DNA of 64,000 nt, taken from Oscillibacter sp. (GTDB lineage Bacteria; Bacillota; Clostridia; Oscillospirales; Oscillospiraceae). Shown one piece after another: positions 19,461 to 40,958 of the stretch; position 1 is the first letter of the stretch; each line of letters opens with the position of its first letter. The stretch covers positions 1 through 64,000 of the forward strand of contig JAAVYM010000072.1 in the NCBI GenBank assembly GCA_022791135.1, written 5' to 3'. The translations under genes were made by a program, and so were the position numbers. Below the pieces are notes generated by a model. That model was given only the letters and a program-made list of their open reading frames with translations, had not been told where the DNA came from and ran no database searches.

Positions 19461-19919
19461 ATGCAATGGACCAGGCAGGAGCGGGAATTCTGCGCGGCCT
19501 ATTTGAAAACTATGGACGCAGAGCGGGCGGCCAGGCTCTGCGGCTGCGAGGATGGCTATGCAATGCTGGCCAGGAAGCCGGTCCGGCGGCGTCTGGAGAT
19601 GATGCGCGGCGCCGAGGAGGGCGCCAGAAGAGAGGACGCCCTCCGGCGGCTGGCCCAGCTGGCCTTCGGCCAGGCCAACGACGCAGTCAAACTGGCCCTG
19701 GCCCCCAGAGAGGCCAGGCCGGAGGAGCTGGATTTGTCCGCCGTGGCGGAGCTGAAAATCACCGACAAGGGCGGCGTGGAGGTGAAGCTGGTGGACCGGG
19801 TGCGGGCACTGGGAACGCTGTGCGAGCTGCTGGGGGAGGGAGGCACAGACGCCGAGTCCCTTTACCGGGCGCTGGAGGACGCCGCCGGTCAGCTGGGGGA
19901 GGCGGCTTATGGCGAGTAA
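19461..19919 (+). CDS. Phage terminase small subunit (XtmA-like)
   Basis: MQWTRQEREFCAAYLKTMDAERAARLCGCEDG...; RBS gaaaggag; immediately precedes the large subunit. Confidence 0.75.
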   Translation: MQWTRQEREFCAAYLKTMDAERAARLCGCEDGYAMLARKPVRRRLEMMRGAEEGARREDALRRLAQLAFGQANDAVKLALAPREARPEELDLSAVAELKITDKGGVEVKLVDRVRALGTLCELLGEGGTDAESLYRALEDAAGQLGEAAYGE

Positions 19920-21150
19920 GGATCTGTCCTTCTCCCCCAAACAGCTGCGGGTTCTGACCTGGTGGCAGAACCCGCGCTGGGAGGCCGTCATCTGTGACGG
20001 GGCCGTGCGGAGCGGAAAAACCTTCGCCATGGGGCTGTCCTTTTTCCTGTGGGCACAGGCGCGGTTTGACAAAAAACAGTTCGGGCTTTGCGGAAAGACC
20101 ATCGTGTCGCTGCGGCGCAACCTGCTGGCGGAGCTGGCCCCCTATCTCCGGCGGCTGGGCATGTCCCTGCGGGAGCGGAGAGGGGAAAACCTGCTGGAGG
20201 TCCGCTTCCGGGGACACACAAACCGCTTTTTGCTCTTCGGCGGGCGGGATGAGTCCAGCGCGGCCTTGATTCAAGGAAGCACCCTGGCGGGGGTGCTCCT
20301 GGACGAGGCCGCGCTGATGCCCCGGTCCTTCGTCGAGCAGGCTGTGGCCCGGTGCAGCGTGGAGGGAAGCAAGCTCTGGTTTAACTGTAATCCGGATGGG
20401 CCGGGTCACTGGTTCTATCAGGAATGGATTCTACAGGCCTGGAAGCGGCGGGCGCTGCGGCTTCACTTCATCATGGAGGACAATCCCGTTCTCACCGGCA
20501 AAATCCGGGAGCGTTACCGGCGGAACTACTCCGGCGTGTTCTACCGGCGGTTCGTATTGGGGGAATGGGTGGGAGCCGAGGGGCTGATCTACGACTTCTT
20601 CGACGCCGGGAGGGACGCCGCCGGGGTCCCCGAGGGGCCTTGGGAGGCCTGGAGAATCTCGGCGGACTATGGAACGGTGAATCCCGCGTCTTTCGGGCTG
20701 TGGGGAATGCAGGGCGGGGTCTGGTACCGGGTGGAGGAATTCTACTACGACTCGAAAAGGGCCGGGCGGCAAAGAACCGACGCGGAGTACGCTGGGGACC
20801 TGGAACAGCTGGCCGGAGGGAGGGACATCCAGCGGGTAATCGTCGACCCGTCGGCCGCCAGCTTCATCGAAACGCTGCGGCGCAGAGGCTTCCCGGTGGT
20901 CAAGGCCAACAACCATGTAAACGACGGCATCCGCGTGACCGCCGACCTGCTCCGGGAGGGCAGCATCATAATCTGCAAAACCTGCCAGGACTGTTTGCGG
21001 GAAATTTCCCAATACCGCTGGGAGCCGGGGCGGGACACCCCCCGGAAACGGGATGACCACGCTATGGACGACATGCGGTATTTCGCCATGGACTTGGCCG
21101 GGGACCGGGGCGACGGGTTCAGCGTTTTGTCTGTGGAACGGGCAATTTGA
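19909..21150 (+). CDS. Phage terminase large subunit (XtmB-like)
   Basis: Walker A GAVRSGKT; Walker B GVLLDEAA; nuclease residues ISADYGT and DDHAMDDMRYF. Confidence 0.95.
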   Translation: MASKDLSFSPKQLRVLTWWQNPRWEAVICDGAVRSGKTFAMGLSFFLWAQARFDKKQFGLCGKTIVSLRRNLLAELAPYLRRLGMSLRERRGENLLEVRFRGHTNRFLLFGGRDESSAALIQGSTLAGVLLDEAALMPRSFVEQAVARCSVEGSKLWFNCNPDGPGHWFYQEWILQAWKRRALRLHFIMEDNPVLTGKIRERYRRNYSGVFYRRFVLGEWVGAEGLIYDFFDAGRDAAGVPEGPWEAWRISADYGTVNPASFGLWGMQGGVWYRVEEFYYDSKRAGRQRTDAEYAGDLEQLAGGRDIQRVIVDPSAASFIETLRRRGFPVVKANNHVNDGIRVTADLLREGSIIICKTCQDCLREISQYRWEPGRDTPRKRDDHAMDDMRYFAMDLAGDRGDGFSVLSVERAI

Positions 21151-21172
21151 TTTATGAGGGGGAAATGACGTT

Positions 21173-22351
21173 TTGAAATGGCTGAAAAAACGGGAGGCAG
21201 AGACGGCGGAACCGGCGGCTGTGCAGCTGCGCAGCTGGGAAAGGCACCCGTTCGGGCCGCTGGGGGAATACGTGCCGCTGCGCGGCGGCGAGGCGCGGCT
21301 CTACCGGGCCGTTCGGGAAGCCGTGCCTGTGGTGGACGCGGCGGTTTACAAGCTGATCCGTATGTGCGGCGGCCTGTCTGTCCGCTGCGACGACCCCGGG
21401 GCGGAACGGGCGCTGTCTGAATTTTTGCGGACAGTGCCGGCGGGGCGGGGACAGGTGGGGCTGAACGCCTTTTTGGACTGCTATCTCGACTCCCTGCTGA
21501 CCTGCGGAAGGGCCGTGGGCGAAATCGTGCCGGGTATCCGGTTCCGGGAGATCGCCGCTTTGCTCTGCGGCAGGGTGGAGGACATCGAAATCCGGGAGGG
21601 CGCCAGCCCCCTGGACTTCACCATCTGGGGTCCCGGCGAGGGCGGGCAGATGGAGGCTCTGCCTTATCAGGATCTGCTCCTCTTCACGCCCCTGAACCCC
21701 GAGGCGGAAAACCCCTACGGCGTGTCCTTGCTGCGCTCCCTACCCTTTATGGCGGATATTCTGATGAAAATTTACCACACTGTGGGGGTTAACTGGGAGC
21801 GCTGCGGCAATGTGCGCTTCGCCGTCACCTGCCAGGGCGGCGAGGGTGCCGCTCAAAGAGGTCAGGCCCTGGCCGGGGAATGGTCCCGGGCTATGCGGGA
21901 AACCCGGGGCGGCTCTGTCCGGGACTTCGTCGCCGCGGGGGACGTGAACATCCGGGTCATCGGCGCGGACGCGCCCATTATGGACAGCCAGGTCCCGGTA
22001 CGGCAGATCCTGGAGCAGATCGTCTCCAAGACCGGCATCCCACCCTTTATGCTGGGGCTGAGCTGGAGTTCTACGGAGAGGATGAGTTCCCAGCAGGCGG
22101 ATATGCTCACCACCGAAATTACCGCCCTGCGGCGGACCCTTACGCCGGTGGTGGAACGGATTTGCCGGCTGTGGCTGCGGATGCAGGGGGCCGCCTGCGG
22201 ATTCGAGGTGGTCTGGGACGACATCAACCTCCAAGACGAGGTGGAGGAGGCCAAGGCCGGCCTCTATCGGGAACAGACCAGAAAGCTGCGGATTGAAAAC
22301 GACGCCGAAGAGGCAAAAAGCGCCCTCCCTGCGGGGGACAAAAAACATTAG
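21173..22351 (+). CDS. Phage portal protein (TTG start)
   Basis: Position after terminase; GIPPFMLGLSWSSTERMSSQQADML; only in-frame start is TTG at 21173. Confidence 0.85.
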   Translation: MKWLKKREAETAEPAAVQLRSWERHPFGPLGEYVPLRGGEARLYRAVREAVPVVDAAVYKLIRMCGGLSVRCDDPGAERALSEFLRTVPAGRGQVGLNAFLDCYLDSLLTCGRAVGEIVPGIRFREIAALLCGRVEDIEIREGASPLDFTIWGPGEGGQMEALPYQDLLLFTPLNPEAENPYGVSLLRSLPFMADILMKIYHTVGVNWERCGNVRFAVTCQGGEGAAQRGQALAGEWSRAMRETRGGSVRDFVAAGDVNIRVIGADAPIMDSQVPVRQILEQIVSKTGIPPFMLGLSWSSTERMSSQQADMLTTEITALRRTLTPVVERICRLWLRMQGAACGFEVVWDDINLQDEVEEAKAGLYREQTRKLRIENDAEEAKSALPAGDKKH

Positions 22352-22360
22352 GGGGTTTAT

Positions 22361-23224
22361 ATGGAGGATTGGAAGGGTCTGGAGATCACGGAGGCCGACC
22401 TGGCGCTGATCAACCGGTTTTCAAAAACCGAACTGCAGGCTGAACAGGTTTACGTGTTTGCCCTGCGGCTGTGTGACAACGAGGTGGACCGGGACTTCGA
22501 GCGCTTCGACGCTCAGGCGCTGGAACGGCTGGGGGAGCTGTTGGTGGGCAAGAGCGGCATCTTTGACCACCAGTGGAGCGCCCTGGGCCAGACGGCCAGA
22601 ATCTATCGGACCGAAATCGTGGAGGAACCCGCCGTGCGCACCGAGGCCGGCGACAGCTACCGGTGGCTCAAGGGCTGGGCTTACTTGCTGCGGACCGAGA
22701 AGAACGGCGATTTGATCGCCGAAATCGAGGGCGGCATCAAAAAAGAGGTCAGCGTCGGTTGCAGCGCGGCGCGGAGCGTATGCTCCATCTGCGGCGCGGA
22801 AAACGGCGGCTGCGCCCATGTGCGGGGACAGGTCTATGACGGGAGGCTGTGCTTCGCGGAGCTGAAGGATGTGACGGACGCTTATGAGTGGTCCTTCGTG
22901 GCCGTGCCGGCCCAGAGGCGGGCGGGTATTCTTAAGCACTTCGCCCAGGAACGGAACGGTGATGACGGCCTGCGCAAGGAGGCCGCCCTGGGGCGGAAGT
23001 ACCTTCGGGAACTGCGACAGGAGGTGGCCCGGCTGGCAATGCTGGCCGATGACGCCCTGGACGGGGCTATCTTCGCCCAGGCCGCGCAGCGGCTGGAGGA
23101 GCCGGAGCTGCTGGAGCTGAAAAAGGCTTACGAAATCAGGGCGGCCAGGCGGTTCCCTGCGGCGGTGCAGCTGAGGCGGCAGAACACGGGGCCGGCGGAG
23201 GATGCGTCTGCATTTTTGGTTTGA
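22361..23224 (+). CDS. Prohead protease/scaffold-like protein with Cys-rich insertion (XkdF position)
   Basis: DNEVDRDFERF, GIFDHQWS (His), KKEVSVGCS (Ser), YEWSFVAVPAQR; CSICGAENGGCAH insertion. Confidence 0.75.
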   Translation: MEDWKGLEITEADLALINRFSKTELQAEQVYVFALRLCDNEVDRDFERFDAQALERLGELLVGKSGIFDHQWSALGQTARIYRTEIVEEPAVRTEAGDSYRWLKGWAYLLRTEKNGDLIAEIEGGIKKEVSVGCSAARSVCSICGAENGGCAHVRGQVYDGRLCFAELKDVTDAYEWSFVAVPAQRRAGILKHFAQERNGDDGLRKEAALGRKYLRELRQEVARLAMLADDALDGAIFAQAAQRLEEPELLELKKAYEIRAARRFPAAVQLRRQNTGPAEDASAFLV

Positions 23225-23249
23225 GCGGAATTATAAGGAGGAAAGACTT

Positions 23250-24287
23250 ATGAGCTATCATTTTGAGAACGTGCGGCTGGAAAAGGGCATGTACGGCCAG
23301 AGCGGGAAGAGCTTCACCCGGACGCTGGAGGAGCTGGACCCCAGCGAGCGCTATCGCGGGACTCCCTTGGAGGGACTGGATGCTTTTCAGCGGCAGCTGA
23401 AGCGCTTCGACATCCACGTCAAGGGCGCGGACAGCGACCAGGTGGAGAAGTTCTTCCACACCACCGAGTCCTCGGTGCTGTTTCCCGAGTTTGTGTCCCG
23501 GGTGGTGCGCCAGGGTCTGGAGGAGGAGGGCATCCTGCCCCATATCACCGCCACTGTCACCAAGTTCGATGGGATGGATTACCGCTCCATCGCCGCCAAT
23601 CCCACCGAGGACGACAAGAAGCTTTTGCCGGTGGAGGAGGGCAAGGCCATCCCGGAAACCGTGCTGAAAACCCAAGAGAACCTGGTCAAGCTCCACAAGC
23701 GGGGCAGAATGCTGGTGGCCTCCTATGAGGCCGTCCGCTTCCAGCGGCTGGACCTCTTTTCCGTCACGCTGCGCCAGATCGGCGCGTACATCGGCAAAAT
23801 GCACTTGCAGGACGCGGTCAAGGTGCTGCTGGAAGGCGACGGCAACCAGAATCCCGCCGAAGCCGCCAGCGTCAGCGGCGAGCTGACCTATGACGCGCTG
23901 CTGGAGTTCTGGAGCGGGTTTGACCCCTATACCATGAACACACTTCTCGTGGGCGGCGACACCATGCTGAAGCTGCTGCGGCTCAAGGAACTTCAAAACC
24001 CCCTGACCGGGCTGAACTTCCAGGGCACCGGCACGCTGTCCACGCCTCTGGGCGCCAAGCTGCTGCGCACCAGCGCCATGCCTGCGGGCACCCTCATCGG
24101 CCTCGACCGGAACTACGCCCTGGAACAGGTCCTCAGCGGCGACGTGCTGGTGGAATACGACAAGCTCATCGACCGGCAGCTGGAACGGGCGGCTATCACG
24201 TCCATTTCCGGCTTTGCCAAGCTCTTCACCGGCGCGTCCCGGGCTTTGAAGCTCACCTCTGCCAGCGGCGGGACGGACGAGACCTGA
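23250..24287 (+). CDS. Major capsid protein (XkdG position)
   Basis: 345-aa protein after protease; RBS aaggagg; DGMDYRSIAANPTEDDKKLLPVEEGKAIPE. Confidence 0.8.
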   Translation: MSYHFENVRLEKGMYGQSGKSFTRTLEELDPSERYRGTPLEGLDAFQRQLKRFDIHVKGADSDQVEKFFHTTESSVLFPEFVSRVVRQGLEEEGILPHITATVTKFDGMDYRSIAANPTEDDKKLLPVEEGKAIPETVLKTQENLVKLHKRGRMLVASYEAVRFQRLDLFSVTLRQIGAYIGKMHLQDAVKVLLEGDGNQNPAEAASVSGELTYDALLEFWSGFDPYTMNTLLVGGDTMLKLLRLKELQNPLTGLNFQGTGTLSTPLGAKLLRTSAMPAGTLIGLDRNYALEQVLSGDVLVEYDKLIDRQLERAAITSISGFAKLFTGASRALKLTSASGGTDET

Positions 24288-24300
24288 GAGGAGCGGCGGC

Positions 24301-24660
24301 GTGAGGGAGCGGATTTTGGAGCTGGCCCTGGCTGCGGCAGGGGGCGGGGAGGCGGAGCGGGTTTTGCTGGAACCCCTCTGCGCCGCCGCAGAGCTGGCCT
24401 GGCAGGGCCGTCTGCGCAGGGGCGTTTCCCTGGGGGATTGCGGCGAGGCACTGGCCTGCGCCGCCGCCTTCACGGCGGCAGCAGATCTGGCGGCAGGCGA
24501 GGGCGGAAGCGTCTCCTTCTCCGCCGGGGATATCTCCGTCAAGGCCCCCGGCGGCCAGGAGCGGGCCGCTGCTGCGGCGGAACTCCGCCGGGCCGCAGAG
24601 CGGCTGATGGAACCCTATGTGCGCGCCACGGACCTCTGGGCAAAGGGGGTCCGGGGATGA
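24301..24660 (+). CDS. Head-tail connector-like protein (GTG start; XkdH position)
   Basis: Small Ala-rich helical ORF; positional. Confidence 0.5.
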   Translation: MRERILELALAAAGGGEAERVLLEPLCAAAELAWQGRLRRGVSLGDCGEALACAAAFTAAADLAAGEGGSVSFSAGDISVKAPGGQERAAAAAELRRAAERLMEPYVRATDLWAKGVRG

Positions 24661-24974
24661 CGCGCTGGGTGGAGGAAATCCTGCGCCGCTATGGCCAGGA
24701 GGCCGAGGTGGTGCGCCGGGAGGGGGAGACGGAGCGCGTCCGGGCCTTTTTGCAGCCTATCCGGGAGCGGGACGAGGCCGTGCCCGAAACCGCCGCCATC
24801 GGCTGGCTGGACGGACGGCTGTGGCTCTATCTGGGGCGGGCCGCCGTGAAGAGCGGGGATACGGTACTTTGGAATGGGCGGCGCTTCCGGGTGCGGAGCG
24901 GGCGGCCCCACTACATCGGGCAGGCGCTCTGCCACTGGCGGGCCGTGCTGGAACGGGCAAGGGAGACGGAATGA
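24657..24974 (+). CDS. Head closure/stopper-like protein (XkdI position)
   Basis: ATGA overlap with previous gene; KSGDTVLWNGRRFRVRSGRPHYIG. Confidence 0.55.
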   Translation: MTRWVEEILRRYGQEAEVVRREGETERVRAFLQPIRERDEAVPETAAIGWLDGRLWLYLGRAAVKSGDTVLWNGRRFRVRSGRPHYIGQALCHWRAVLERARETE

Positions 24975-25474
24975 AGGAACTGAGGCAGATTCGCGACGCG
25001 GTCATCGGCGCGCTCCGGGACGGGGGATTGGAGGCCGAGGCCGCCTTCCCCGCCAAGTGGGCCGACGAGCGGAAAATCCCGCTGGCCACGGTGGCCGTGG
25101 GCGCTATGGAGGGAAAGCATATCGGCTTTTGCGGCTATCTGGGCCAGCGGCAGGAGGAATCCGGACAGGTCCGGGAGGTCTACGGCAAGCGCCTGGAGGG
25201 CGTGATCACGGTGGATATCCGGGCCGGGCGGGCCGCTGTCTGCGAGGGCGGCGGCGAAACCGCCTCGGCAGTGCTGCTGGGCGGACTGCCGGAGGGCATC
25301 CGGCCTGGAGAACTGAGCTGGGAGGCCCTGACCTGGGAGAAGGAGACCGGGCTGTTCCTTCGGAGGGGAAAGCTGCGGTGTGAGGCACTGTTCCTGGCGG
25401 AGGCCGGGGAGGAAGGCGAAACCTTCCTGGATTTTATTTTGAAAGGGGTCATGCAACATGAGCGAAATCCATGA
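24971..25474 (+). CDS. Tail terminator/completion-like protein (XkdJ position)
   Basis: MKELRQIRDAVIGALRDGGLEAEAAFPAKWADERKIPLATVAVG; positional. Confidence 0.5.
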   Translation: MKELRQIRDAVIGALRDGGLEAEAAFPAKWADERKIPLATVAVGAMEGKHIGFCGYLGQRQEESGQVREVYGKRLEGVITVDIRAGRAAVCEGGGETASAVLLGGLPEGIRPGELSWEALTWEKETGLFLRRGKLRCEALFLAEAGEEGETFLDFILKGVMQHERNP

Positions 25475-26513
25475 GCGGCCGGGGGTATACTCGGTCTATG
25501 ACACGTCCTCGGTGGTGTCCGGCGGACGGGCGGCCCGGGCAATCGGGGTGGCTGCCAAGGCGGCAAAGGGCAGCGTTGGCACTCCGGTGACGGTGACCGG
25601 CTACGCCGCCGGGGCAGCGGCCTTTGGCGAGGACGCCGCCTCCGGCATGGCCGCAATCCTGCGGCTGTTGTTCGCCAACGGCGCATCCAAGGTGACGGCG
25701 GTGCGCGTGGCGGACACGGGCGGCGTGGAGGACTATCAAAACGCCTTCGCCGCCCTGGGAAAGGAGGATGTGCAGGTGCTGGTCTGCGACAGCGGCGAGG
25801 CCGATGTGCAAAAGGCCCTGCGGACTGCCGTGGAGGACGCCTCCGCCCTCCGGCATGAGCGGATCGCCGTTGTGGGATGCAGCGGCGCGGACGTGGAGGA
25901 TCTGGTGGCCCGGGCGGCGGAACTGAACAGCGAACGCATAGTGCTGGTGGGCCCCGACGCCCTGGACAGCGGCGGGAAGACCCTCTCCGGCGTCTTTGCC
26001 GCCGCAGCGGTGGCGGCCCTGGCCGCAGGCGGGGACCCGGCGATCCCCCTGAACGGCGGCGAGGTGAGGGGCCTGGGCGGCTTGGCTCAGAACTATGACG
26101 ACGGCGACATCGACCGGCTCGTCCGGGGCGGCGTCACCCCCTTGGAGTGCGTGGGCGGCGTGGTGTCCCCCGTGCGGGGCATCACAACCCGGACCACCAC
26201 CGGCGGCACCGCCGACGCTACCTGGCGGGAACTGACCACCATTTTAATCGTGGACGACGTGATCCCAGCTGTGCGCAACGCAATCCGGAGCAAATTCGCC
26301 CGGAGCAAAAACAATGCCAGAAGCCGCGCCGCAATCCGCTCTCAGGTTATCGTGGAGCTGGAGAAGAAGCGGGCGGCAGAGGTCATCGACGGCTATGACG
26401 GCGTGAGCGTGGCTCCCTCTGAGGAGGACCCCACCGTGTGCCTGGTGGAGTTCGGCTTCTCCGTGGCCCATGGGCTGAACCAGGTGCGGCTGACCGTACA
26501 CATTGAAATTTGA
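25458..26513 (+). CDS. Contractile tail sheath protein (XkdK-like)
   Basis: MSEIHERPGVYSVYDTSSVVSGG...RTTTGGTADATWRELTTILIVDDVIPAVRNAIRSKF. Confidence 0.85.
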   Translation: MSEIHERPGVYSVYDTSSVVSGGRAARAIGVAAKAAKGSVGTPVTVTGYAAGAAAFGEDAASGMAAILRLLFANGASKVTAVRVADTGGVEDYQNAFAALGKEDVQVLVCDSGEADVQKALRTAVEDASALRHERIAVVGCSGADVEDLVARAAELNSERIVLVGPDALDSGGKTLSGVFAAAAVAALAAGGDPAIPLNGGEVRGLGGLAQNYDDGDIDRLVRGGVTPLECVGGVVSPVRGITTRTTTGGTADATWRELTTILIVDDVIPAVRNAIRSKFARSKNNARSRAAIRSQVIVELEKKRAAEVIDGYDGVSVAPSEEDPTVCLVEFGFSVAHGLNQVRLTVHIEI

Positions 26514-26533
26514 GAAAGGGACGGTGAGATGCA

Positions 26534-26917
26534 ATGAACGGTTTTCCCACCAGCTCGGACATCTATCTGGAGATGGACGGCAAAAAGGTGGCGGTGGTGC
26601 AGAGCTACACCGCCAAAGCCTCTAAGACCTCCCAGAGCGTGGAAGCCTTCGGCGAGAGCGAGCCGGTGGCCACGATCGAGGGGCAAAAACGCTATACCCT
26701 GGAACTGACCAGGCTCTATGCCACGGACAGCGCCGTATCCGATGGGATCAACTTTTACGACCTGGCCGACTTTTCCCTGGTCATCTGCAAGCCGGACCGG
26801 CGAATCATCTACAGCGGCTGCCAGTGGAGCGGCATCCAGGAGGATGGACAGCTCAACGCTATGGTGGCGGAAAAGGTCACTGTGGTGGCGGCTAAGCGAA
26901 TCGAAACCTCCGTATGA
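26534..26917 (+). CDS. Tail tube protein (XkdM-like)
   Basis: FPTSSDIYLEMDGKKVAVVQSYTAKASKTSQSVEAFGESEPVATIEGQKRYTLELTRLY. Confidence 0.85.
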   Translation: MNGFPTSSDIYLEMDGKKVAVVQSYTAKASKTSQSVEAFGESEPVATIEGQKRYTLELTRLYATDSAVSDGINFYDLADFSLVICKPDRRIIYSGCQWSGIQEDGQLNAMVAEKVTVVAAKRIETSV

Positions 26918-27222
26918 GAACCATGGATGAGCTGCGGCCCCTGAGCGCAGGGCGGCTGCTGGAGCTGTGGCGGGCCTGCCGGGAAATCGAGGACCCGCTG
27001 GAGCGGGTCTTGCAGTGCAACGGCGAAATTTTGGCGGAGTGCTGCCACTTCCAGGGAGAGCCGGTCTACGCCGGCAGCAGCGAAGCCTTGAGCGATCTCA
27101 CTGGGCGCGAGATGGAGGAGCTTCTGCGGCGGCTGGCGGAGGGCCAGCCGCCCCGGGGCGGCGAGCCGGAGGAAAATCCGGTATTTGATTTGGCGCGCTT
27201 CGCGGCGCTGCGGGGGGAGTGA
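26914..27222 (+). CDS. Tail assembly chaperone-like protein (XkdN position)
   Basis: ATGA overlap with tube gene; positional. Confidence 0.45.
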   Translation: MRTMDELRPLSAGRLLELWRACREIEDPLERVLQCNGEILAECCHFQGEPVYAGSSEALSDLTGREMEELLRRLAEGQPPRGGEPEENPVFDLARFAALRGE

Positions 27223-27227
27223 CAGGC

Positions 27228-28106
27228 ATGGACTATCCGGGATGGGAGCTGAAGCGGCAGCGGGCCGCGCTGGCGGCGCTGCTGCTGGGCGGCGGGGCGG
27301 CAGAGGGGGACACGGGTCCCCAGGGTCCGGTACAGCGGAGTCCGGCAGAGGACTCTGCCCAGGCGGTGCGGAAAACCGGCATGGGACAGGCTGCCGTTTG
27401 GGACCAAGAGAGGGTCCCAGAGGAGGGGACGGGTCCCCGGATGGTGGCCCACCGCGCCGGGGGGGATTCTAGCCACCGTAGAGATACAAGGCTGCCGCCG
27501 AGCGCCTGGGAGGAAATTCTGGGCGCGGAGGCTGCGGCGGAGGTCCTGGAGCGCAAGAGCTGGGGCGCGGAGTTCCCTGAACCAGCAGGAGGCGGCAGGG
27601 ACGGGCAAGGTGCGGCAGGTAAATTCCCCGGCAGAGGGAGCCGTGCGCCGGAGGCGGGCCGGAGCGGCTCCGGCAGGGGCGGCGGACAGGCCGCAGGCGA
27701 CGCTGCGGCGGGACGGCGGGCGGAAAGAGAACTGGATGACGTTCTTCTTGCGCGAGCGGCCGGAGAGGCAATGGCCGGGGAAACCATTGCCGGAGCATCT
27801 GTGGGCGGGGAGGCGGCCTTCGCCCGGGCTTTCCACGGCGGGGAGGCCGCCGGGAAAAACAATAACGCCGCCGCCAGGGACCCGCTGCGGGCGGCGCAGT
27901 TTCGCAGCAGCAGCGGGAAAGCGGTACAAGCGCCGGGGCAGGACGGGCTGCCGGTCTTCCAGAGTCTGGAACTGACCGGAGGGACTGGACCCTGGAGTGC
28001 AGGCCGCTACGCCGGGGAAGCAAAGACCGAGGACGGCGCAAGAGCGCTGTCCAGAGCGGTCCAGCGGGATGCCAGGCGTTATGACGGCGGCTTTACGATA
28101 TATTGA
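27228..28106 (+). CDS. Gly/Ala/Arg-rich protein in the tape-measure slot
   Basis: 292-aa MDYPGWELKRQRAALAALLLGGGAAEG...ALSRAVQRDARRYDGGFTIY; lies between XkdN and XkdP positions. Confidence 0.6.
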   Translation: MDYPGWELKRQRAALAALLLGGGAAEGDTGPQGPVQRSPAEDSAQAVRKTGMGQAAVWDQERVPEEGTGPRMVAHRAGGDSSHRRDTRLPPSAWEEILGAEAAAEVLERKSWGAEFPEPAGGGRDGQGAAGKFPGRGSRAPEAGRSGSGRGGGQAAGDAAAGRRAERELDDVLLARAAGEAMAGETIAGASVGGEAAFARAFHGGEAAGKNNNAAARDPLRAAQFRSSSGKAVQAPGQDGLPVFQSLELTGGTGPWSAGRYAGEAKTEDGARALSRAVQRDARRYDGGFTIY

Positions 28107-28163
28107 TGGATTCGCCCGCCGGAGCGGCGCTCCGGCGGGCGGGTCAAGAAGGGGGGATCGGGC

Positions 28164-28742
28164 GTGCGGCTGACGCCTATGCGGTTTAAGGATTTTACGT
28201 GGCCTCACAACCCGGAGGTTTATACGGTGGAGCACCGGCGGCGGATCGCCGTTCACCAGGTGCCCTTTGGGCGGTGCGTTATGCAGGAGCTGGGCGGCTC
28301 CTACCGGGTGCTGAAGGGGGAGGGCACTTTCGTGGGGGCGGACGCCTATACGCAGTTCCGGCGGCTGGCCGGGGTCTTTCAGGAGGATGGGGCGGGATTA
28401 CTGGTTCACCCGGTCTGGCCGGCTGAACGGGCCTATTTCGCCTCGCTGGAGATGGTGGAGGAGCCGCTGCCGGATTTCGTGCGCTACCGCTTTGAGTTCT
28501 GGGAGGACTGGAGCGGCTATAACGACGGATGGGCGGAGATTCCGGCGGAGAACGGCGACGGCTCCGGCGGGACTGCCGCCGGAGCCGGGCAGACGGAACG
28601 GGCGCACACCGTCCGGAAAGGGGACACCCTCTGGGGAATTGCCAAGCAGTACGGCGTGGAGCTGGCCGAGCTGCTCCGGGCGAACCCCGGAATCAAAAAT
28701 CCAAATCTCATTTATCCCGGAGAGGCGGTGCGGATTCCATGA
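28164..28742 (+). CDS. LysM-domain tail protein (XkdP/gpX-like; GTG start)
   Basis: C-terminal LysM: HTVRKGDTLWGIAKQYGVELAELLRANPGIKNPNLIYPGEAVRIP. Confidence 0.85.
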   Translation: MRLTPMRFKDFTWPHNPEVYTVEHRRRIAVHQVPFGRCVMQELGGSYRVLKGEGTFVGADAYTQFRRLAGVFQEDGAGLLVHPVWPAERAYFASLEMVEEPLPDFVRYRFEFWEDWSGYNDGWAEIPAENGDGSGGTAAGAGQTERAHTVRKGDTLWGIAKQYGVELAELLRANPGIKNPNLIYPGEAVRIP

Positions 28743-29680
28743 CGGGCCGGATTTACACAGCGGACCATCAGGTCTATGAGCTGCCGGCGCTGCTGAGCTG
28801 GCAGATTACGCACACGGGCACCGTGCCCTGCGACAGCTTCTCCGTCTCCTTCCTCTACCGGAGGGAAATGGCCCCGGCGCTGCGCATGGCTGCGGGCTTC
28901 ACCGCGGCGGAAAACGGGGCGGTGATGCTCCGGGGCATCGTGGACGAATACACCGTGGAGCTGGACGGCGGCGGTCTGACCGCCTCCATCACCGGGCGGG
29001 GCTACGCCGCCCGGCTGCTGGACAACGAGTCCCGGCCCGTCACCTATCAGGCCGCCACGCTGACGGAAATCTTAAGCAACCACGCCGAACCTTATGGCCT
29101 AACCTGCCGGGCGGCGTCCGAAATCCGGGCCAGCTCCGCCTACACCGTGGCGGCGGGCGCCAGCCAGTGGAAGGCCGTGGAGGGTTTTTGCCGGACCTAT
29201 GGGGGCTTCTCTCCCCGGTTCAGCCGGGAGGGGGAGCTGCTGGCCAGGCCGGAAACCCCCGGGCGAACCCTCTCCCTGGGCGAGAAGGACCCGGTGCTGC
29301 GCTGCGTCCTGCGGGAGGACTACTATGGCGTGGTGACGGAGGCCCTGGTCATCGACAAGACCCGCAACCGCTCCTTCTCCGTGAAAAACCAGGACAGGAT
29401 CCGCCGGGGCGGTCAGTGCCGCCGGGTGGTCTACACGCCGGGCCAGAGCACCTGGGCCGCTATGCGTTACACGGGGGAATACCAAATTCAGCGCTCCCAG
29501 GAGGACGCCTGGACTGTGGAAATCACACTGCCCGGGAGCTTTCTGGCCTTTCCGGGGGACCGCGCGGCCCTCCGGCTGGATCGGATGGGACTGGACGGTA
29601 CCTTTCGGGTGGCGGAGGCTGAGAACCGATTTGACGGACAAAACGGAGCCACGGCGGCTCTGACGCTGAAGCCCCTTTGA
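28739..29680 (+). CDS. Baseplate hub protein (XkdQ/gpD-like)
   Basis: 313-aa; MTGRIYTADHQVYELPALLSWQITHTGTVPCDSFSVSF; ATGA overlap with LysM gene. Confidence 0.75.
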   Translation: MTGRIYTADHQVYELPALLSWQITHTGTVPCDSFSVSFLYRREMAPALRMAAGFTAAENGAVMLRGIVDEYTVELDGGGLTASITGRGYAARLLDNESRPVTYQAATLTEILSNHAEPYGLTCRAASEIRASSAYTVAAGASQWKAVEGFCRTYGGFSPRFSREGELLARPETPGRTLSLGEKDPVLRCVLREDYYGVVTEALVIDKTRNRSFSVKNQDRIRRGGQCRRVVYTPGQSTWAAMRYTGEYQIQRSQEDAWTVEITLPGSFLAFPGDRAALRLDRMGLDGTFRVAEAENRFDGQNGATAALTLKPL

Positions 29681-29705
29681 ATGCGGGGAAATGGAGGAAA
29701 TATCA

Positions 29706-30101
29706 ATGTGGCTTTCAAAACAGATGAAGCCCGCCGGTGCAACGGCGGACGCGGATTTGGGCGTAACCACCATTGCCGGGGAACGGGTGGGCGTGATTAC
29801 CCGGGGGGAGGTCCGGGACCTGCCGGTATACGGACCCGGGGGATATTTATGGACGCCGGACAGCGGAACGGCGGTACTGGTCATCAAGGGCGGACCCGGC
29901 GGCGAGGAGCAGTGCGTGGCCGGGGCGCGGCCCGCCAAGGCGCCGGTGAGCCTCCGGCCCGGAGAAGTCTATCTCTATGGCCCCGGCGGAAATTCCATCT
30001 ACCTCCGGCAGGACGGCAGCGTGGAAATCCAGGGCGGGAAGGTGTCCATCTCCGGCGAGCTGGCTGTGAATGGGAAGCCCTACCAGCCCTGTGAATGCTG
30101 A
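29706..30101 (+). CDS. Baseplate/spike-like protein (XkdR position)
   Basis: Gly-rich beta repeats ...VYLYGPGGNSIYLRQDGSVEIQGGKVSISGELAVNGKPYQPCEC. Confidence 0.55.
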   Translation: MWLSKQMKPAGATADADLGVTTIAGERVGVITRGEVRDLPVYGPGGYLWTPDSGTAVLVIKGGPGGEEQCVAGARPAKAPVSLRPGEVYLYGPGGNSIYLRQDGSVEIQGGKVSISGELAVNGKPYQPCEC

Positions 30102-30117
30102 CAAAGGAGGATGCTCA

Positions 30118-30468
30118 GTGGAACTGGAGCTGAGAGAGGGAGACTATGTGGCCGACAGCGCAGGCGGGCTGAAGCGCGTCCGCGGACGGGAGGCTCTGCT
30201 GCAGCGGGTTCTCTTCCGCCTGACCGCCCGGCGGGGGGCCTTCCCCTTCTGGGAGAGCCTGGGGAGCCGGCTGTGGGAGCTGGGCAGCGTCCCCGCGGCG
30301 GGGCGCAGGGCCGCCGCCCGGCAATACGTGGCCGAGGCCCTGGCGGAGGAGCCGGTGACGGTGGAGGACGTGACGCTGGAACCGGGCCGGGATAACACGG
30401 CGGCGGTAAGTGCTTTCCTCCGCTATGAGGGGGAGCCACTGCCGGTGACGGTAGAGGTTTTGCTATAG
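30118..30468 (+). CDS. Baseplate wedge protein (gp25/DUF2634-like, XkdS position; GTG start)
   Basis: ALLQRVLFRLTARRGAFPFWESLGSRLWELG. Confidence 0.7.
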   Translation: MELELREGDYVADSAGGLKRVRGREALLQRVLFRLTARRGAFPFWESLGSRLWELGSVPAAGRRAAARQYVAEALAEEPVTVEDVTLEPGRDNTAAVSAFLRYEGEPLPVTVEVLL

Positions 30469-30480
30469 GGGGAGAGAAGA

Positions 30481-31542
30481 TTGCGGAGTATTGAAACCAT
30501 TTACGAGGAAATGCTGGCCCGCTTCGCGGAGCGGGCCGGTTTTGCGCCGGAGGCGGGCTGCGATCTGGCCGTCCGGCTGTGGGCGGCCGCAGCGGAGCTT
30601 CAGGCCCTGGAGGCCCAGGCCGAGTGGGTGCTGGACCAGAGCTTCCCTCAGACAGCCCAGGGAATTTACCTGGACCGCCACGGGACTATGCGGGGCCTGA
30701 AGCGCCTGCCCGCCACCCGGGCTGCAGGGACGCTGCGCTTTTCTATCGAATCCGCGGCGGCAATGGACCTCGTCATCCAGGCCGGAACCGTGTGCATGAC
30801 GGCGGGGGAGGTCCGGGTTCGGACCACCGGGGAGACCGTGATTGCCGCCGGGGAGCTGTACGCCGACGCCCCCGCCGAGGCGGTGGAGCCTGGGGCGGCG
30901 GGAAACCTGCCACCGGGGGCCGTAGCGTTTTTGACAGCCTGCCCTGTGGCCGTGACGGCGGTGACAAACCCGGGGGCCTTCACCGGCGGCAGCGACAGCG
31001 AGGACGACTCGTCCTTCCGCGCCCGCATCCTGGAGAGCTACCAGCGCCTGCCCAACGGTGCCAACACGGCTTGGTATGAGACCACCGCCATGAGCTATCC
31101 CGGCGTAACCGCCGCCAAGGCCGTGGGCCGGGCCGAGGGGCCAGGCACGGTGCACGTATACGTCACCGGCGAGAAGGGCCTGCCGGACACGGCGCTGCTG
31201 GAGGGGCTGGAGGCCGAGTTCCAGGAAAAGCGAGAAATCGCCGTGACGGTGACAGTGCTGGCTCCCACCACCAAAACAGTGAATGTGGCCGTGGCCGTGG
31301 CTCCCAAGGAGGGGGCTGACAAGGACGCCGTGCTGGAATCCGCCAGGCAGGCTATCGCCGGGTTCTTCGGCGGGCGATTGCTGGGCCGGGCCGTGCTTCT
31401 GGCGGAGCTGGGAAACCGGCTCTACGATCTGGAGGGCGTGGCAAATTACCGCTTCGCCTCCCCAGCGGCGGATCTCCCCGCCGACAGCACCGTGCTGCCG
31501 GTGTTGGGCACGCTGGAGGTCACGGAGCTGGCGGAGGTGTAG
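30481..31542 (+). CDS. Baseplate J-like protein (XkdT; TTG start)
   Basis: FPQTAQGIYLDRHGTMRGLKRLPATRAAGTLRF...GGSDSEDDSSFRARILESYQ. Confidence 0.9.
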   Translation: MRSIETIYEEMLARFAERAGFAPEAGCDLAVRLWAAAAELQALEAQAEWVLDQSFPQTAQGIYLDRHGTMRGLKRLPATRAAGTLRFSIESAAAMDLVIQAGTVCMTAGEVRVRTTGETVIAAGELYADAPAEAVEPGAAGNLPPGAVAFLTACPVAVTAVTNPGAFTGGSDSEDDSSFRARILESYQRLPNGANTAWYETTAMSYPGVTAAKAVGRAEGPGTVHVYVTGEKGLPDTALLEGLEAEFQEKREIAVTVTVLAPTTKTVNVAVAVAPKEGADKDAVLESARQAIAGFFGGRLLGRAVLLAELGNRLYDLEGVANYRFASPAADLPADSTVLPVLGTLEVTELAEV

Positions 31543-31543
31543 C

Positions 31544-32125
31544 GTGTACGAGGAATATTTAAAGGCGCTGCTGGCCCCGCTGGGGGTCTACCGCCTGGAC
31601 AAAGACTCCCTCAGCGGCGCGGAGCTTTACGCCCTGGGCGGGGAGATGGACCTCGCCGCAGAGCGCCTGGAGGACGTGGAACGGGAGTCTGTCACCGCCA
31701 CGGCGGAGGGCGAGGGCCTGCGCCGCCGGGAGGCGCTGTTCCTCCGCCGTCCCGCCTCCACCACGCTGCAAGAGCGCAGGGACGCCATTGCGGCCCTCCT
31801 GCAAATCGACGGCGACAGCCTGACACCCGAGGCCATCAACCGCACCATCAGCGGCTGCGGCATTCGGGCCAGGGCCATTGAGACGGGAACAAACCAGGTC
31901 CGGGTCGAATTCCCCGGAACGGCGGGCGTGCCCCGGGACTTTGACCAGATTCAGCGCATCATCCTGGACATCCTCCCCTGCCACCTGGGCGTGGAGTTCC
32001 ACCTGCGCTACCTCACCTGGGAGGCGTGCCACCGGGCGGAATACACCTGGGCCTTTGTGGAGGAACAATCCTACACCTGGGAGACGCTTCCCCTGGCAAT
32101 CCCGCCGGAAGAGGAGTCTTTATAA
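31544..32125 (+). CDS. DUF2313/YmfQ-like tail protein (XkdU position; GTG start)
   Basis: MYEEYLKALLAPLGVYRLDKDSLSGAELYALGGEMD...; follows baseplate J. Confidence 0.75.
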   Translation: MYEEYLKALLAPLGVYRLDKDSLSGAELYALGGEMDLAAERLEDVERESVTATAEGEGLRRREALFLRRPASTTLQERRDAIAALLQIDGDSLTPEAINRTISGCGIRARAIETGTNQVRVEFPGTAGVPRDFDQIQRIILDILPCHLGVEFHLRYLTWEACHRAEYTWAFVEEQSYTWETLPLAIPPEEESL

Positions 32126-32531: not shown

Positions 32532-32619
32532 TGGTGCGCGAGGCGGGACTTGAACCCGCACGTCCGTAAAGGACACTAGAACCTGAATCTAGCGAGTCTG
32601 CCAATTCCACCACTCGCGC
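32532..32619 (-). tRNA. tRNA-Leu(CAG), CCA encoded
   Basis: Revcomp GCGCGAGTGGTGGAATTGGCAGACTCGCTAGATTCAGGTTCTAG...GGTTCAAGTCCCGCCTCGCGCACCA. Confidence 0.95.
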
Positions 32620-32692
32620 GCATCCATATGAACTTTTGCCTTCCAGACGGATGAATCCGGGTCCCGCCCCGTGGGAGACGGGACCCTCATCC

Positions 32693-32780
32693 TGGTGCGC
32701 GAGGCGGGACTTGAACCCGCACGTCCGTAAAGGACACTAGAACCTGAATCTAGCGAGTCTGCCAATTCCACCACTCGCGC
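32693..32780 (-). tRNA. tRNA-Leu(CAG), second identical copy
   Basis: Same 88-nt sequence as 32532-32619. Confidence 0.95.
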
Positions 32781-32811
32781 ATGGTGTTGAACATCCTCTC
32801 TGGAAGGACGG

Positions 32812-32897
32812 TGGTGCGGCTGACGGGACTTGAACCCACACGTCGATTTGACACCAGCACCTCAAGCTGGCCTGTCTACCAGTTCCAGCACAGCCGC
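32812..32897 (-). tRNA. tRNA-Leu(GAG)
   Basis: Revcomp GCGGCTGTGCTGGAACTGGTAGACAGGCCAGCTTGAGGTGCTGG...GTTCAAGTCCCGTCAGCCGCACCA. Confidence 0.95.
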
Positions 32898-37842: not shown

Positions 37843-39183
37843 TCAGTCCTTTAAAACGTCCACAGCCTCCACGCCGTAATATTGAAACAGCCTCACGGCC
37901 TCCGCGCCGATCCGCTCCCCGGACACCGCAACGGGCACCGCCGGGGGACAGCTCACCGTGGGCGCACCGCAGATTCGCCCCAGGCTTTTCTCCGCCGGAA
38001 CCGTCTCCTGCGGGGCGAACAGGGCCTGCCGCACAGTTAGGACCCGCTCTCCCTTCGCCGGGGGCAGGGCGGGACGGGGAACCGGCCGCCCCGGGACGGC
38101 GCTTTGAAGGACGTCCGCCACGCGAAGAAACGCCTTCTCGTCCGTAGAGCCGGAGGCCATCAGCACCGCGAAGTCCCGGTCCGCGTATTCCAGCTCAACG
38201 CCCCCCGCCCGAAGACGCTCCGCCGTGAAAAACCCCGTCCACCCAAAGGCGGCCGCGTCCAAGGCGAGCTTCAGCGGCTCCGTCCCCGCGAAAGTCCAGC
38301 CCCCTCCGGCCAGATCCCGCTTCAGCGCGGCCATTCTCCCGGCGGCAGCGCGGATGCCATCCGCCCCCTCTCCGGCGAGATAGGCGTTGCACAAATCCAG
38401 GGACGATAGCGTCAAGTAAGACGGGCTGGTGGAGCCAAAGAGGGCCAGGGCCGCCCTGGCCCGGTCCCGCAGCACCGCCGGCGCAGTTTTGGCGACGTGC
38501 AGGTACGCCCCGCCGGTGAGAACCGGAAGGGTTTTGTGGGCAGAGTCGCAGACCAGGTCCGCCCCCAGGTCCAGAGGATGGAGGGAGGGGCTGAGAAAGC
38601 GAAGATACGCCCCATGGGCGTTGTCCGCCAGAAGCAGGGTTCCATAGCGGCGGCAGACCTCCGCCAGGGCGGGCAGGTCCGCCATATTCCCCAGATAGTC
38701 GGGGCTGGTTACGTAAACGGCGGCAGGCGGGGCGCTCAGGGCGGCTAAGGCCCGCTCCAGCCCCACCGCCGTGACAGGGCAGGCACAGAGGGGGGCGTCC
38801 CCCTCCGGCCACAGCCATGCAATCTCGAAATCCAGCAGGGCCGCGGCGTAGACAAAGGCCTTGTGCGCATTCCGGGCGGCCAGCACCACCGGCGGCGTCC
38901 CGGCAGGGCGGGCTTGCAGGGCCAGGCACAGCATGGCCCGGATGCACTGGCTGGAGCCTTCCGTGGAGTAGAAGGTAGCCCCCGAGCCGAAGAGGGCGGC
39001 GGCATTGCGCTCACTCTGCGCAAGAATGCCGGACGCTTCATAGAGGGAGTCCGCCCCGGGGATCTCCGTGATGTCCCACGCCTCGCAGCCGAGCGCCCCG
39101 GCCCCCTTGTGCCCCGGCATGTGGAAGCGGCATTTATCCGCCTTCTGATAGCGCCGGAGAAAGTCCGCGACCGGAGTGGTCAT
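37843..39183 (-). CDS. Orn/Lys/Arg decarboxylase family PLP enzyme
   Basis: MTTPVADFLRRYQKADKCRFHMPGHKG...DSAHKTLPVLTGGAYLHV (PLP Lys); ATGA overlap with scfB. Confidence 0.88.
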   Translation of the reverse strand: MTTPVADFLRRYQKADKCRFHMPGHKGAGALGCEAWDITEIPGADSLYEASGILAQSERNAAALFGSGATFYSTEGSSQCIRAMLCLALQARPAGTPPVVLAARNAHKAFVYAAALLDFEIAWLWPEGDAPLCACPVTAVGLERALAALSAPPAAVYVTSPDYLGNMADLPALAEVCRRYGTLLLADNAHGAYLRFLSPSLHPLDLGADLVCDSAHKTLPVLTGGAYLHVAKTAPAVLRDRARAALALFGSTSPSYLTLSSLDLCNAYLAGEGADGIRAAAGRMAALKRDLAGGGWTFAGTEPLKLALDAAAFGWTGFFTAERLRAGGVELEYADRDFAVLMASGSTDEKAFLRVADVLQSAVPGRPVPRPALPPAKGERVLTVRQALFAPQETVPAEKSLGRICGAPTVSCPPAVPVAVSGERIGAEAVRLFQYYGVEAVDVLKD

Positions 39184-40565
39184 GCCTCCGCCTCTTCCGC
39201 CAGGGCGGCCTGGAGCATGATGGCGCACTCCATCCGCTTGCGGAACAACTCGCAGCCCGCTGCGTACACGCCTCGGATGGAACCGGAGGCATGATAGGCG
39301 TTGGCGGCACAGCCGCCGGAACAATAGAGCTTGGCCCAGCAACCGGCGCACTCCGGCCGGGCATAGGCATTGCAGGAGCGGAACTCCTCCCGCAGGGCCG
39401 TGTTTACGACGCCCTGCCACACGTCTCCCAGCTTGTATGCCTCCTCCCCCACGAACTGGTGGCAGGGATAGAGGTCCCCCTGGGGGGTGACGGCCATATA
39501 CTCCGTTCCGGAGCCGCAGCCGGAGATGCGCTTATAGACGCAGGGACCCCCGGTCAAATCCAGCATGTAATGGTAGAAGGTAATGGGCCGGCCCTCCCGG
39601 CGGCGCTTCAGCATCTCCTTCGCCAGAAGCTCGTACTGTCCTTTCACAATCTCCAAATCCTCCGCCGTCAGCGCCGCCGGGTCCCCCGGCGCGCAGACCA
39701 CCGGCTCCATGCTCAGCTCTGTGAAGCCCAGGTCCGCCATATGGAAGAGGTCCTTCGTAAAGTCTGGATTGGCGTGGGTAAAGGTGCCCCGCATGTAATA
39801 CCTTGTCCCCCCCCGGGCCTTGACCAGCTTTTGAAACTTGGGGACAATGCGGTCATAGCTGCCGTTCCCGGCGCAATCCACCCGGAGGGCGTCGTGGATC
39901 TCCTTCCGCCCGTCCAGGGAGAGGACCACGTTGTCCATCTCCCGGTTGGCAAAGTCGGTCACCTCGTCGTCAAGGAGCATGCCGTTGGTGGTCAGGGTGA
40001 AGCGGAATTTTTTATGGCAGGACTCCTCCCGGGTACGGGCGTAGGCCACCAGATCCTTCACCACCTGCCAGTTCATCAGCGGCTCGCCGCCAAAGAAATC
40101 CACCTCCAGGTTCGTGCGGCTCCCGGAATGCGCGATGAGGAAGTCCAGGGCCTGCCGGCCCACCTCGAAGCTCATCAAGGCCCTCTCGCCGTGGTACTTC
40201 CCCTGGCTGGCGAAGCAGTAGGCGCAGTTGAGGTTGCAGGTATGGGCCACATGGAGGCACAGGGCCTTCACCACGTCGCCGGAGCGCTGCTTAAACGTCC
40301 CGGCCATGCCGGCGAAGCGGTCGGGGGTGTAGAGCTGCCCGGACCGCTCCAGGGCCTTCACGTCGGAAAAGCACTCCCGGATCTCCTCCTCCGTAACGTC
40401 GGGGCGCCCTGCATATTTGTCCAGCAGCACCTTCACGATCTCCTCCACGCTGTGGTCCGGGCAGAGGGCAATGACGTCATAGGCCACCTCGTCCACCACA
40501 TGGATCCCGCCGGAGCAGGTGTCCAGCACGATGTGATAGCCGTTTAATTCATATTGATGTACCAT
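39180..40565 (-). CDS. scfB: SCIFF peptide maturase (radical SAM/SPASM)
   Basis: HVAHTCNLNCAYCFASQGKYHGERALM; C-terminal SPASM Cys cluster CNAYARPECAGCWAKLYCSGGC. Confidence 0.93.
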   Translation of the reverse strand: MVHQYELNGYHIVLDTCSGGIHVVDEVAYDVIALCPDHSVEEIVKVLLDKYAGRPDVTEEEIRECFSDVKALERSGQLYTPDRFAGMAGTFKQRSGDVVKALCLHVAHTCNLNCAYCFASQGKYHGERALMSFEVGRQALDFLIAHSGSRTNLEVDFFGGEPLMNWQVVKDLVAYARTREESCHKKFRFTLTTNGMLLDDEVTDFANREMDNVVLSLDGRKEIHDALRVDCAGNGSYDRIVPKFQKLVKARGGTRYYMRGTFTHANPDFTKDLFHMADLGFTELSMEPVVCAPGDPAALTAEDLEIVKGQYELLAKEMLKRRREGRPITFYHYMLDLTGGPCVYKRISGCGSGTEYMAVTPQGDLYPCHQFVGEEAYKLGDVWQGVVNTALREEFRSCNAYARPECAGCWAKLYCSGGCAANAYHASGSIRGVYAAGCELFRKRMECAIMLQAALAEEAEA

Positions 40566-40722
40566 AGAACCTCCTGGGATTCAATAAAATCGTTCCGGCG
40601 CGGCTTCCCGCCGGGCGTCCGCTCCCACTTGCGGCTGGAGCCTCCGCCCGCAAGTGGGAAATCCGGCATGCCGGGCAGGAAAGAAACGCGCCGCCCGGAC
40701 CGGGCGGCGCATTGGAAACGGC

Positions 40723-40863
40723 TCACTTCTGCTCGCACTTCTGATTGGCGACGCCGCAGCTGGTCTTGCAGGCGGACTGGCAGGAGGTCTGGCACTCGCC
40801 GCAGCCGCCCTTCTTGGCGCTCTCGCAGAGGCTGCGGGTCTCCAGGGTTTTGATTCTCTTCAT
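40723..40863 (-). CDS. scfA: SCIFF ribosomal peptide precursor
   Basis: 46-aa MKRIKTLETRSLCESAKKGGCGECQTSCQSACKTSCGVANQKCEQK directly upstream of the maturase; below ORF-track cutoff. Confidence 0.93.
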   Translation of the reverse strand: MKRIKTLETRSLCESAKKGGCGECQTSCQSACKTSCGVANQKCEQK

Positions 40864-40929
40864 AATATCTTCTCCGTTCTAAATGGATTTTAAAGCCGCC
40901 GGCAGACACACCGGCCCATGATTGTGGAA

Positions 40930-40958
40930 AGTGTAACATAGAACCGCCGGAAAGTCAA
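40930..40958 (-). promoter_or_regulatory. Promoter of the SCIFF operon
   Basis: Minus-strand TTGACT-17 bp-TACACT. Confidence 0.7.

Follow-up and report, generated by a model that had tools for sequence, protein, structure and literature searches.

The window (the whole 64,000-nucleotide stretch of Oscillibacter DNA analysed here) carries an ancient, mostly vertically inherited, GTA-like gene cluster, which a sequence-only reading of the same DNA had missed. The tape-measure slot of this cluster is filled by an ORF of 292 aa. Its product is probably functional, the minimal protein that takes up the tape-measure position in an Oscillospirales element that is domesticated, contractile-tailed and GTA-like. 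The wider element, known here from its genes alone, is a strong candidate for an Oscillospirales GTA.

The cluster spans positions 19461-32125. As shown in Table 1, its genes run in the order terS, terL, portal, head gene, major capsid, three neck genes, sheath, tube, chaperone, slot, LysM, hub, spike, gp25, J and gp48. With the large terminase (413 aa) as its largest protein, the cluster encodes no long tape-measure protein. This agrees with the sequence-only reading, which had placed a 292-aa ORF in the slot and no long tape measure. By ORF list and family scans, the cluster is free of integrase, replication and lysis genes. As for attachment-site repeats, the cluster flanks share no repeat of at least 12 bases. 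Three tRNA-Leu genes lie on the minus strand at 32532-32897, about 400 bases past the last gene of the cluster, with no matching repeat at the other end. Elsewhere in the window (39180-40939), a radical-SAM-like protein is encoded beside a short Cys-rich ORF; by eye, the two resemble a ribosomal peptide maturation pair.

Table 1. Genes of the cluster and segments of the slot protein, in window coordinates.
Feature	Position	Strand	Evidence
terS, small terminase (Terminase_2)	19461..19919	+	Pfam PF03592 E=3e-8; N-terminal segment kept
terL, large terminase	19909..21150	+	Pfam PF03237 E=5e-13
Portal protein	21173..22351	+	Pfam PF04860 E=2.5e-6, below curated cut-off; conserved in relatives
Head gene, probable capsid maturation protease/scaffold (by position)	22361..23224	+	62-80% identity in same-genus loci; no Pfam match
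Major capsid protein	23250..24287	+	Pfam PF25209 E=9e-13
Probable head-tail adaptor (by position)	24301..24660	+	Conserved; no Pfam match
Probable stopper/head-closure protein (by position)	24657..24974	+	ORF; no Pfam match
Probable tail terminator (by position)	24971..25474	+	ORF; no Pfam match
Contractile tail sheath	25458..26513	+	Pfam PF04984/PF17482; PHROG tail sheath E=6e-46
Tail tube protein (XkdM-like by position)	26534..26917	+	phrog_27038 E=1e-65, no PHROGs function; 79-96% identity across genus
Tail assembly chaperone, reduced, 102 aa	26914..27222	+	AlphaFold pLDDT 90; fold matches 2OB9, 3KLU
Tape-measure-slot ORF	27228..28106	+	292 aa, ATG start; minimal tape-measure-slot protein
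Slot protein N-terminal helix, residues 3-19	27234..27284	+	pLDDT ~94
Slot protein middle helix, residues 93-111	27504..27560	+	pLDDT ~85
Slot protein C-terminal motif	28044..28103	+	ALSRAVQRDARRYDGGFTIY; invariant residues; dN/dS 0.06-0.5, valid pairs
XkdP-like LysM tail protein	28164..28742	+	LysM E=2e-16, DNA_circ_N E=1e-7
Baseplate hub (XkdQ-like)	28739..29680	+	PHROG baseplate hub E=6e-41
Spike-like protein (by position)	29691..30101	+	phrog_25991 E=3e-42, no PHROGs function
gp25-like sheath initiator/baseplate wedge	30118..30468	+	PHROG baseplate wedge E=2.5e-5; Pfam Sheath_initiator E=9e-4, below cut-off
Baseplate J-like protein	30481..31542	+	Pfam PF04865 E=4e-55
Mu gp48-like (XkdU-like) baseplate protein, last gene	31544..32125	+	Pfam PF10076 E=1e-9

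Judged by its sequence features and its orthologues, the slot ORF is a real gene. It has a good ribosome-binding site (GGGGGGAG), its own start codon and the C-terminal end ALSRAVQRDARRYDGGFTIY, and it is flanked by the 102-aa chaperone-like ORF and the LysM gene. Orthologues with the same two ends were found in the same slot of essentially every sheath-bearing copy of the cluster, and their reading frame relative to the gene upstream differs from copy to copy. A near-perfect GC-rich palindrome without a T run, GCCCGCCGGAGCGGCGCTCCGGCGGGC, is located at 28110-28145, between the slot and LysM genes.

In the AlphaFold model, the slot protein has three short helices (residues 3-19, 93-111 and 267-284) and is otherwise disordered, with 156 of the 292 residues at pLDDT <50. 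The highest 19-residue hydropathy is 0.92, which indicates that there is no transmembrane segment; the earlier statement that no TM-rich protein is present holds for the slot ORF. The low-complexity middle and distinctive C-terminal end described earlier were also confirmed. Across slot proteins, both ends are conserved, and the middle is fast-evolving, low in complexity and predicted to be disordered. The N-terminal helix has the consensus MDYIxEELLRQRxALAxLLxG and the common C-terminal motif is RD[AS]RRYDGGF. Five residues are invariant across 43 members, four of which (D281, R283, R284 and G287) belong to the C-terminal motif. In close pairs, dN/dS was about 0.06-0.5 over the last 25 codons, 0.1-0.96 over the first 25 codons and mostly about 0.5-0.8 in the middle, where a single pair reached 1.29. 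The L073 rows, which held a wrong ORF, were left out of the slot-end comparison and of dN/dS. The middle of the L159 protein is partly made of 39-nt tandem repeats (x6.4). Slot proteins are 118-301 aa long in Oscillibacter-type species. Elsewhere the shortest have about 90 aa, and those fused to a chaperone remnant reach 424 aa (open frame).

No known domain was found in any of the 43 members, and the slot protein is therefore assigned to no known family. A search with HMMs and structures, which the sequence-only reading had proposed for tape-measure families, gave no match in PHROGs or Pfam at E<=0.01 for any member and none among PDB chains.

The neighbouring 102-aa protein gave its best PDB fold match to 2OB9, the HK97 tail assembly chaperone (probability 0.87, TM 0.50, with a weak E-value of 0.39). 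YqbN (3KLU), which we take to be of the XkdN type, was also among its fold matches, and some of its matches in viruses are annotated as tail assembly chaperones. Flavonifractor-type relatives have a T-like ORF after the chaperone, in the -1 frame (G/T pair). The in-frame slippery sequence A_AAA_AAN was present in 24 of the 30 loci with a T-like ORF, nearly always 33 nt before the T motif, and in four of the six loci without it the T ORF is open straight from the tube gene. Since the neighbour folds like tail assembly chaperones and the relatives keep a -1 frameshift signal, the slot corresponds to the tape-measure position. The arrangement of the relatives, with the 2OB9 fold and a slippery-sequence G/T pair just before the slot, resembles that of HK97 and lambda-type chaperone pairs. 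In contrast to those pairs, the window's clade has neither frameshift nor T extension, its slot frame varies, and no long tape measure lies downstream.

The T extension and the frameshift were lost in the Oscillibacter clade, where the frame from chaperone to slot varies within the genus; the slot is thus translated on its own. A programmed frameshift fusing chaperone to slot was rejected because of the same variation. Of the chaperone pair, L242 and L245 keep only the T-like part; their slot protein has about 101 aa. In another clade (L139, L140, L142, L152, L153, L157, L159, L161 and L167), chaperone and slot form a single ORF. This ORF consists of a different N-terminal helix, the motif NPxFDxxRF, which is the last motif of the chaperone, a long low-complexity part and RDxRRYDNGFPLY.

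By placement, directly after the chaperone and ahead of the XkdP/hub genes, the slot gene is where a tape-measure gene would be. In sequence, its product matches no known tape-measure family. In shape, it has 292 aa with three short helices and no long coiled coil in the AlphaFold model. On account of sequence and shape, we regard it as a minimal tape measure at best and withhold family membership.

The tube protein was used as the tag for locating the cluster in genomes. Between the tube and LysM genes, the open frames of 218 related loci reach at most 406 aa. A long XkdO-type protein was absent from all 218, although the order XkdM-N-O-P-Q-S-T-U is kept. Every sheath-bearing copy but one (L246) holds short ORFs only in this stretch. 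The sequence-only reading had suggested looking for the short protein and its C-terminal motif in related loci, and both are kept: a simple pattern found the ORF with this motif in 190 of the 212 sheath-bearing loci, and several of the others carry diverged versions. It had also allowed for a non-functional particle, and for a deletion remnant should homologous loci carry a full-length tape measure. Neither was borne out. None of the 218 loci has such a gene, so a remnant of a long tape measure was rejected; the short protein occurs in 48 genera, and the neighbouring structural genes are intact and conserved.

A tape measure encoded elsewhere was also considered and rejected, as PF10145 had no match in the window genome (84.5% complete). 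PF10145, which covers only part of the tape-measure families, matched nothing in 9 of 13 genomes, and in the other 4 it matched proteins of 746-1207 aa at other genome positions. In a phage collection, only two unannotated faecal contigs matched the tube; both also encode the short slot protein.

The presence of the slot gene is linked to that of the sheath gene. Of 218 judgeable loci, 211 have both, 6 have neither, 1 has the sheath only and none has the slot only. The single exception, L246, has a diverged sheath and no slot gene. The Fisher test gave P = 5e-11, which overstates the evidence: the loci are relatives of one another, and some represent one genome taken from two collections; roughly four sheathless lineages back the co-occurrence. 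The sheathless loci belong to genera g134, g45 and g85 and to family f23. Sheathed congeners in g134 and g45 keep both genes, which suggests that the losses were repeated. Neither a sheath nor a slot gene is present in L232, L236, L249, L250 and L390 (Oscillospiraceae) or in L385 and L386 (another family), and their tube is strongly diverged. Several of these also lack gp25, J and gp48, leaving a head-plus-short-tail cluster of 8-9 kb beside ordinary host genes. In the sheathless forms, the genes for head and packaging are still conserved. Such relatives offer a natural series of tail loss.

Among genomes of the same genus, the cluster was found in 45 of 61, as a single copy with a tube 79-96% identical. 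It is carried by 131 of the 401 Oscillospiraceae genomes, spread over 48 of 106 genera. A sample of the order added a few members in other families, and in a sample of the class (n=341) the window's own genome was the sole match. From these samples, the element is essentially one of the Oscillospirales. A scan of named genomes gave 231 relatives, and the best 80 of the 231 were mostly Oscillibacter, Dysosmobacter, Flavonifractor and Pseudoflavonifractor; Oscillibacter valericigenes Sjm18-20 is a named strain that carries the cluster. Nearly all carriers have a single copy.

Inheritance is mostly vertical and tracks the host phylogeny. Distances for AddA and for TerL, major capsid and hub combined were correlated with a Mantel r=0.93 (0/2000 permutations), and 9 supported splits were shared, with 4 in conflict. 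The addAB and sir2 flanks are common to the clusters of close relatives. The distant copies L358 and L361 have the same upstream neighbours, a DegV-like gene and an RNA methyltransferase-like gene, which suggests one ancient insertion site. Literature searches returned nothing on this Oscillospirales element. We know of no earlier contractile-tailed GTA family in Gram-positive gut bacteria, and the present one would be the first.

The cluster has several of the features by which GTAs are recognized. Its head, packaging and tail genes derive from phages, it lacks integrase, replication and lysis genes, and it is mainly inherited vertically in the host lineage. Like RcGTA, it is a domesticated phage structural cluster with a similarly small protein at the tape-measure position (PMC7296036). 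The RcGTA tape-measure protein g11 has ~216 residues, comprising a 113-residue helix, 83 residues of strands and loops and a 20-residue helix, and works with five tube rings (PMC7296036). RcGTA is siphovirus-like, with a non-contractile tail and a trimeric tape measure, whereas the present element has contractile tail genes and a mostly disordered protein. The slot protein has no sequence match to the RcGTA tape measure. A domain truncation census showed that, outside the Oscillibacter clade, the TerS of most genera has about 91-130 aa and is missing the N-terminal region seen in the window's clade. This resembles, by sequence only, the TerS of RcGTA, which is described as having no specific DNA-binding domain (PMC7947584). 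The window's own TerS keeps the N-terminal segment, which is partly retained in its clade, and this counts against the GTA reading.

The order and types of the tail genes (sheath, tube, chaperone, slot, LysM, hub, gp25, J and gp48) are like those of PBSX, and the chaperone fold resembles YqbN (3KLU). PBSX XkdO is about 1,330 aa, compared with 292 aa in the present slot. PBSX also has fibre and lysis genes, which are absent from the present cluster.

The family of Faecalibacterium belongs to the same GTDB order as that of the present element. FpGTA of Faecalibacterium is podovirus-like with no visible tail (PMC12946183). It is likewise a GTA-like operon, in a related gut family, without replication genes, and its TerS has no obvious DNA-binding domain (PMC12946183). 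The present element differs, in a comparison by description only, by having sheath, tube and baseplate in most members. GTA-like packaging was reported in 2026 in Ruminococcaceae, Oscillospiraceae (Onthomonas) and Christensenellaceae; Onthomonas was searched for an operon, and an operon was reported only for Faecalibacterium (PMC12946183). The packaging in Onthomonas may be tied to the present cluster, which is a concrete, family-wide candidate for GTA-like packaging in Oscillospiraceae. It is a tentative, rather doubtful proposal that a contractile GTA family across the Oscillospirales, with a stubby tail controlled by a disordered protein (about 90-424 aa) that is no ruler, and with sheath and slot protein repeatedly shed together towards simpler tails, is the missing operon behind GTA-like packaging in human faecal Oscillospiraceae.

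Tape-measure length sets tail length at roughly 0.15 nm per residue. At this value, and fully helical, a protein of 292 aa would reach about 44 nm at most, and one of 118 aa about 18 nm. By analogy with RcGTA, the tail is most likely contractile and very short, and the conservation of the slot protein in a small, mostly disordered form suggests the same; the particle probably moves bacterial DNA between cells and does not infect. The sequence-only reading is partly supported; its options were a very short contractile tail, length control by a new mechanism, and a particle non-functional for delivery. During assembly, the chaperone would deliver the slot protein, whose C-terminal helix would dock on the hub/LysM initiator and whose N-terminal helix would meet the tube end or terminator. 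The strand between the helices would fill and plug a tube of only a few rings, and the protein would exit before DNA passage. The particle would package host-DNA fragments and deliver them. The slot protein is an unusually simple system for asking what the minimum length of a tape measure is and whether a disordered protein can set tail length.

The slot protein may not measure anything, as its length varies from 118 to 301 aa among Oscillibacter-type species and its middle evolves almost freely. A disordered, repeat-prone, weakly constrained middle is odd for a ruler and argues against a strict one. A non-measuring tether or plug is thus a serious rival. In that case the slot protein would be an assembly adaptor in a contractile tail without a tape measure, either tethering chaperone, hub and tube or plugging the lumen, and length would be set by nucleation limits, a terminator or subunit stoichiometry. 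That only the ends are conserved, that length differs more than two-fold among close species, that chaperone remnant and slot are one ORF in one clade, and that about 101 aa suffice in L242 and L245 would all fit an adaptor. However, the protein occupies the exact tape-measure position after the chaperone, and conserved ends around a variable middle are likewise kept by tape-measure proteins. RcGTA also shows that a tape measure of such size exists (PMC7296036). On balance we consider the adaptor rather unlikely. A role as disordered cargo or effector, in which the protein would ride in the tube lumen and be injected into target cells, is very improbable: a fast-evolving middle between conserved terminal tags would suit this role, but no member has a known domain, and the position and loss pattern of the gene fit a structural one.

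For the function of the particle, the main rival is a PBSX-type killing device, which would package host DNA without delivering it and whose short slot protein would reflect a tail for membrane damage. The tail genes have the same order and types as in PBSX, which is described as GTA-like, without injection of its DNA (PMC12946183). Against this, several lineages lost sheath and slot yet keep terminase, portal and capsid at high scores. Selection thus seems to act on DNA packaging and not on the contractile tail. The Oscillospiraceae clusters checked have no fibre gene either, and we judge a killing device unlikely. Decaying prophage debris is strongly disfavoured. The weakly constrained middle and the gene loss in some lineages would be expected of debris, but the structural genes are intact and conserved in many genera, the C-terminus is under strong purifying selection, and frames are open in nearly all copies. 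Our preferred reading remains a working minimal protein at the tape-measure position of a GTA-like element.

In other families (L357, L358, L360-L362, L385, L387 and L388), a small tail-fibre-like ORF with the motif MPSSxKTxxLxLNxWxGxDKPKMxDFNxDN lies directly after gp48. Stand-alone ORFs with a similar motif, QQTxNYQLNQWxxxDRIxxxDFNxDN, were found elsewhere in six carrier genomes (L403-L408). Most of these adjoin genes for large secreted proteins that resemble S-layer-domain proteins, together with glycan-type genes. A separate fibre locus is possible for these ORFs.
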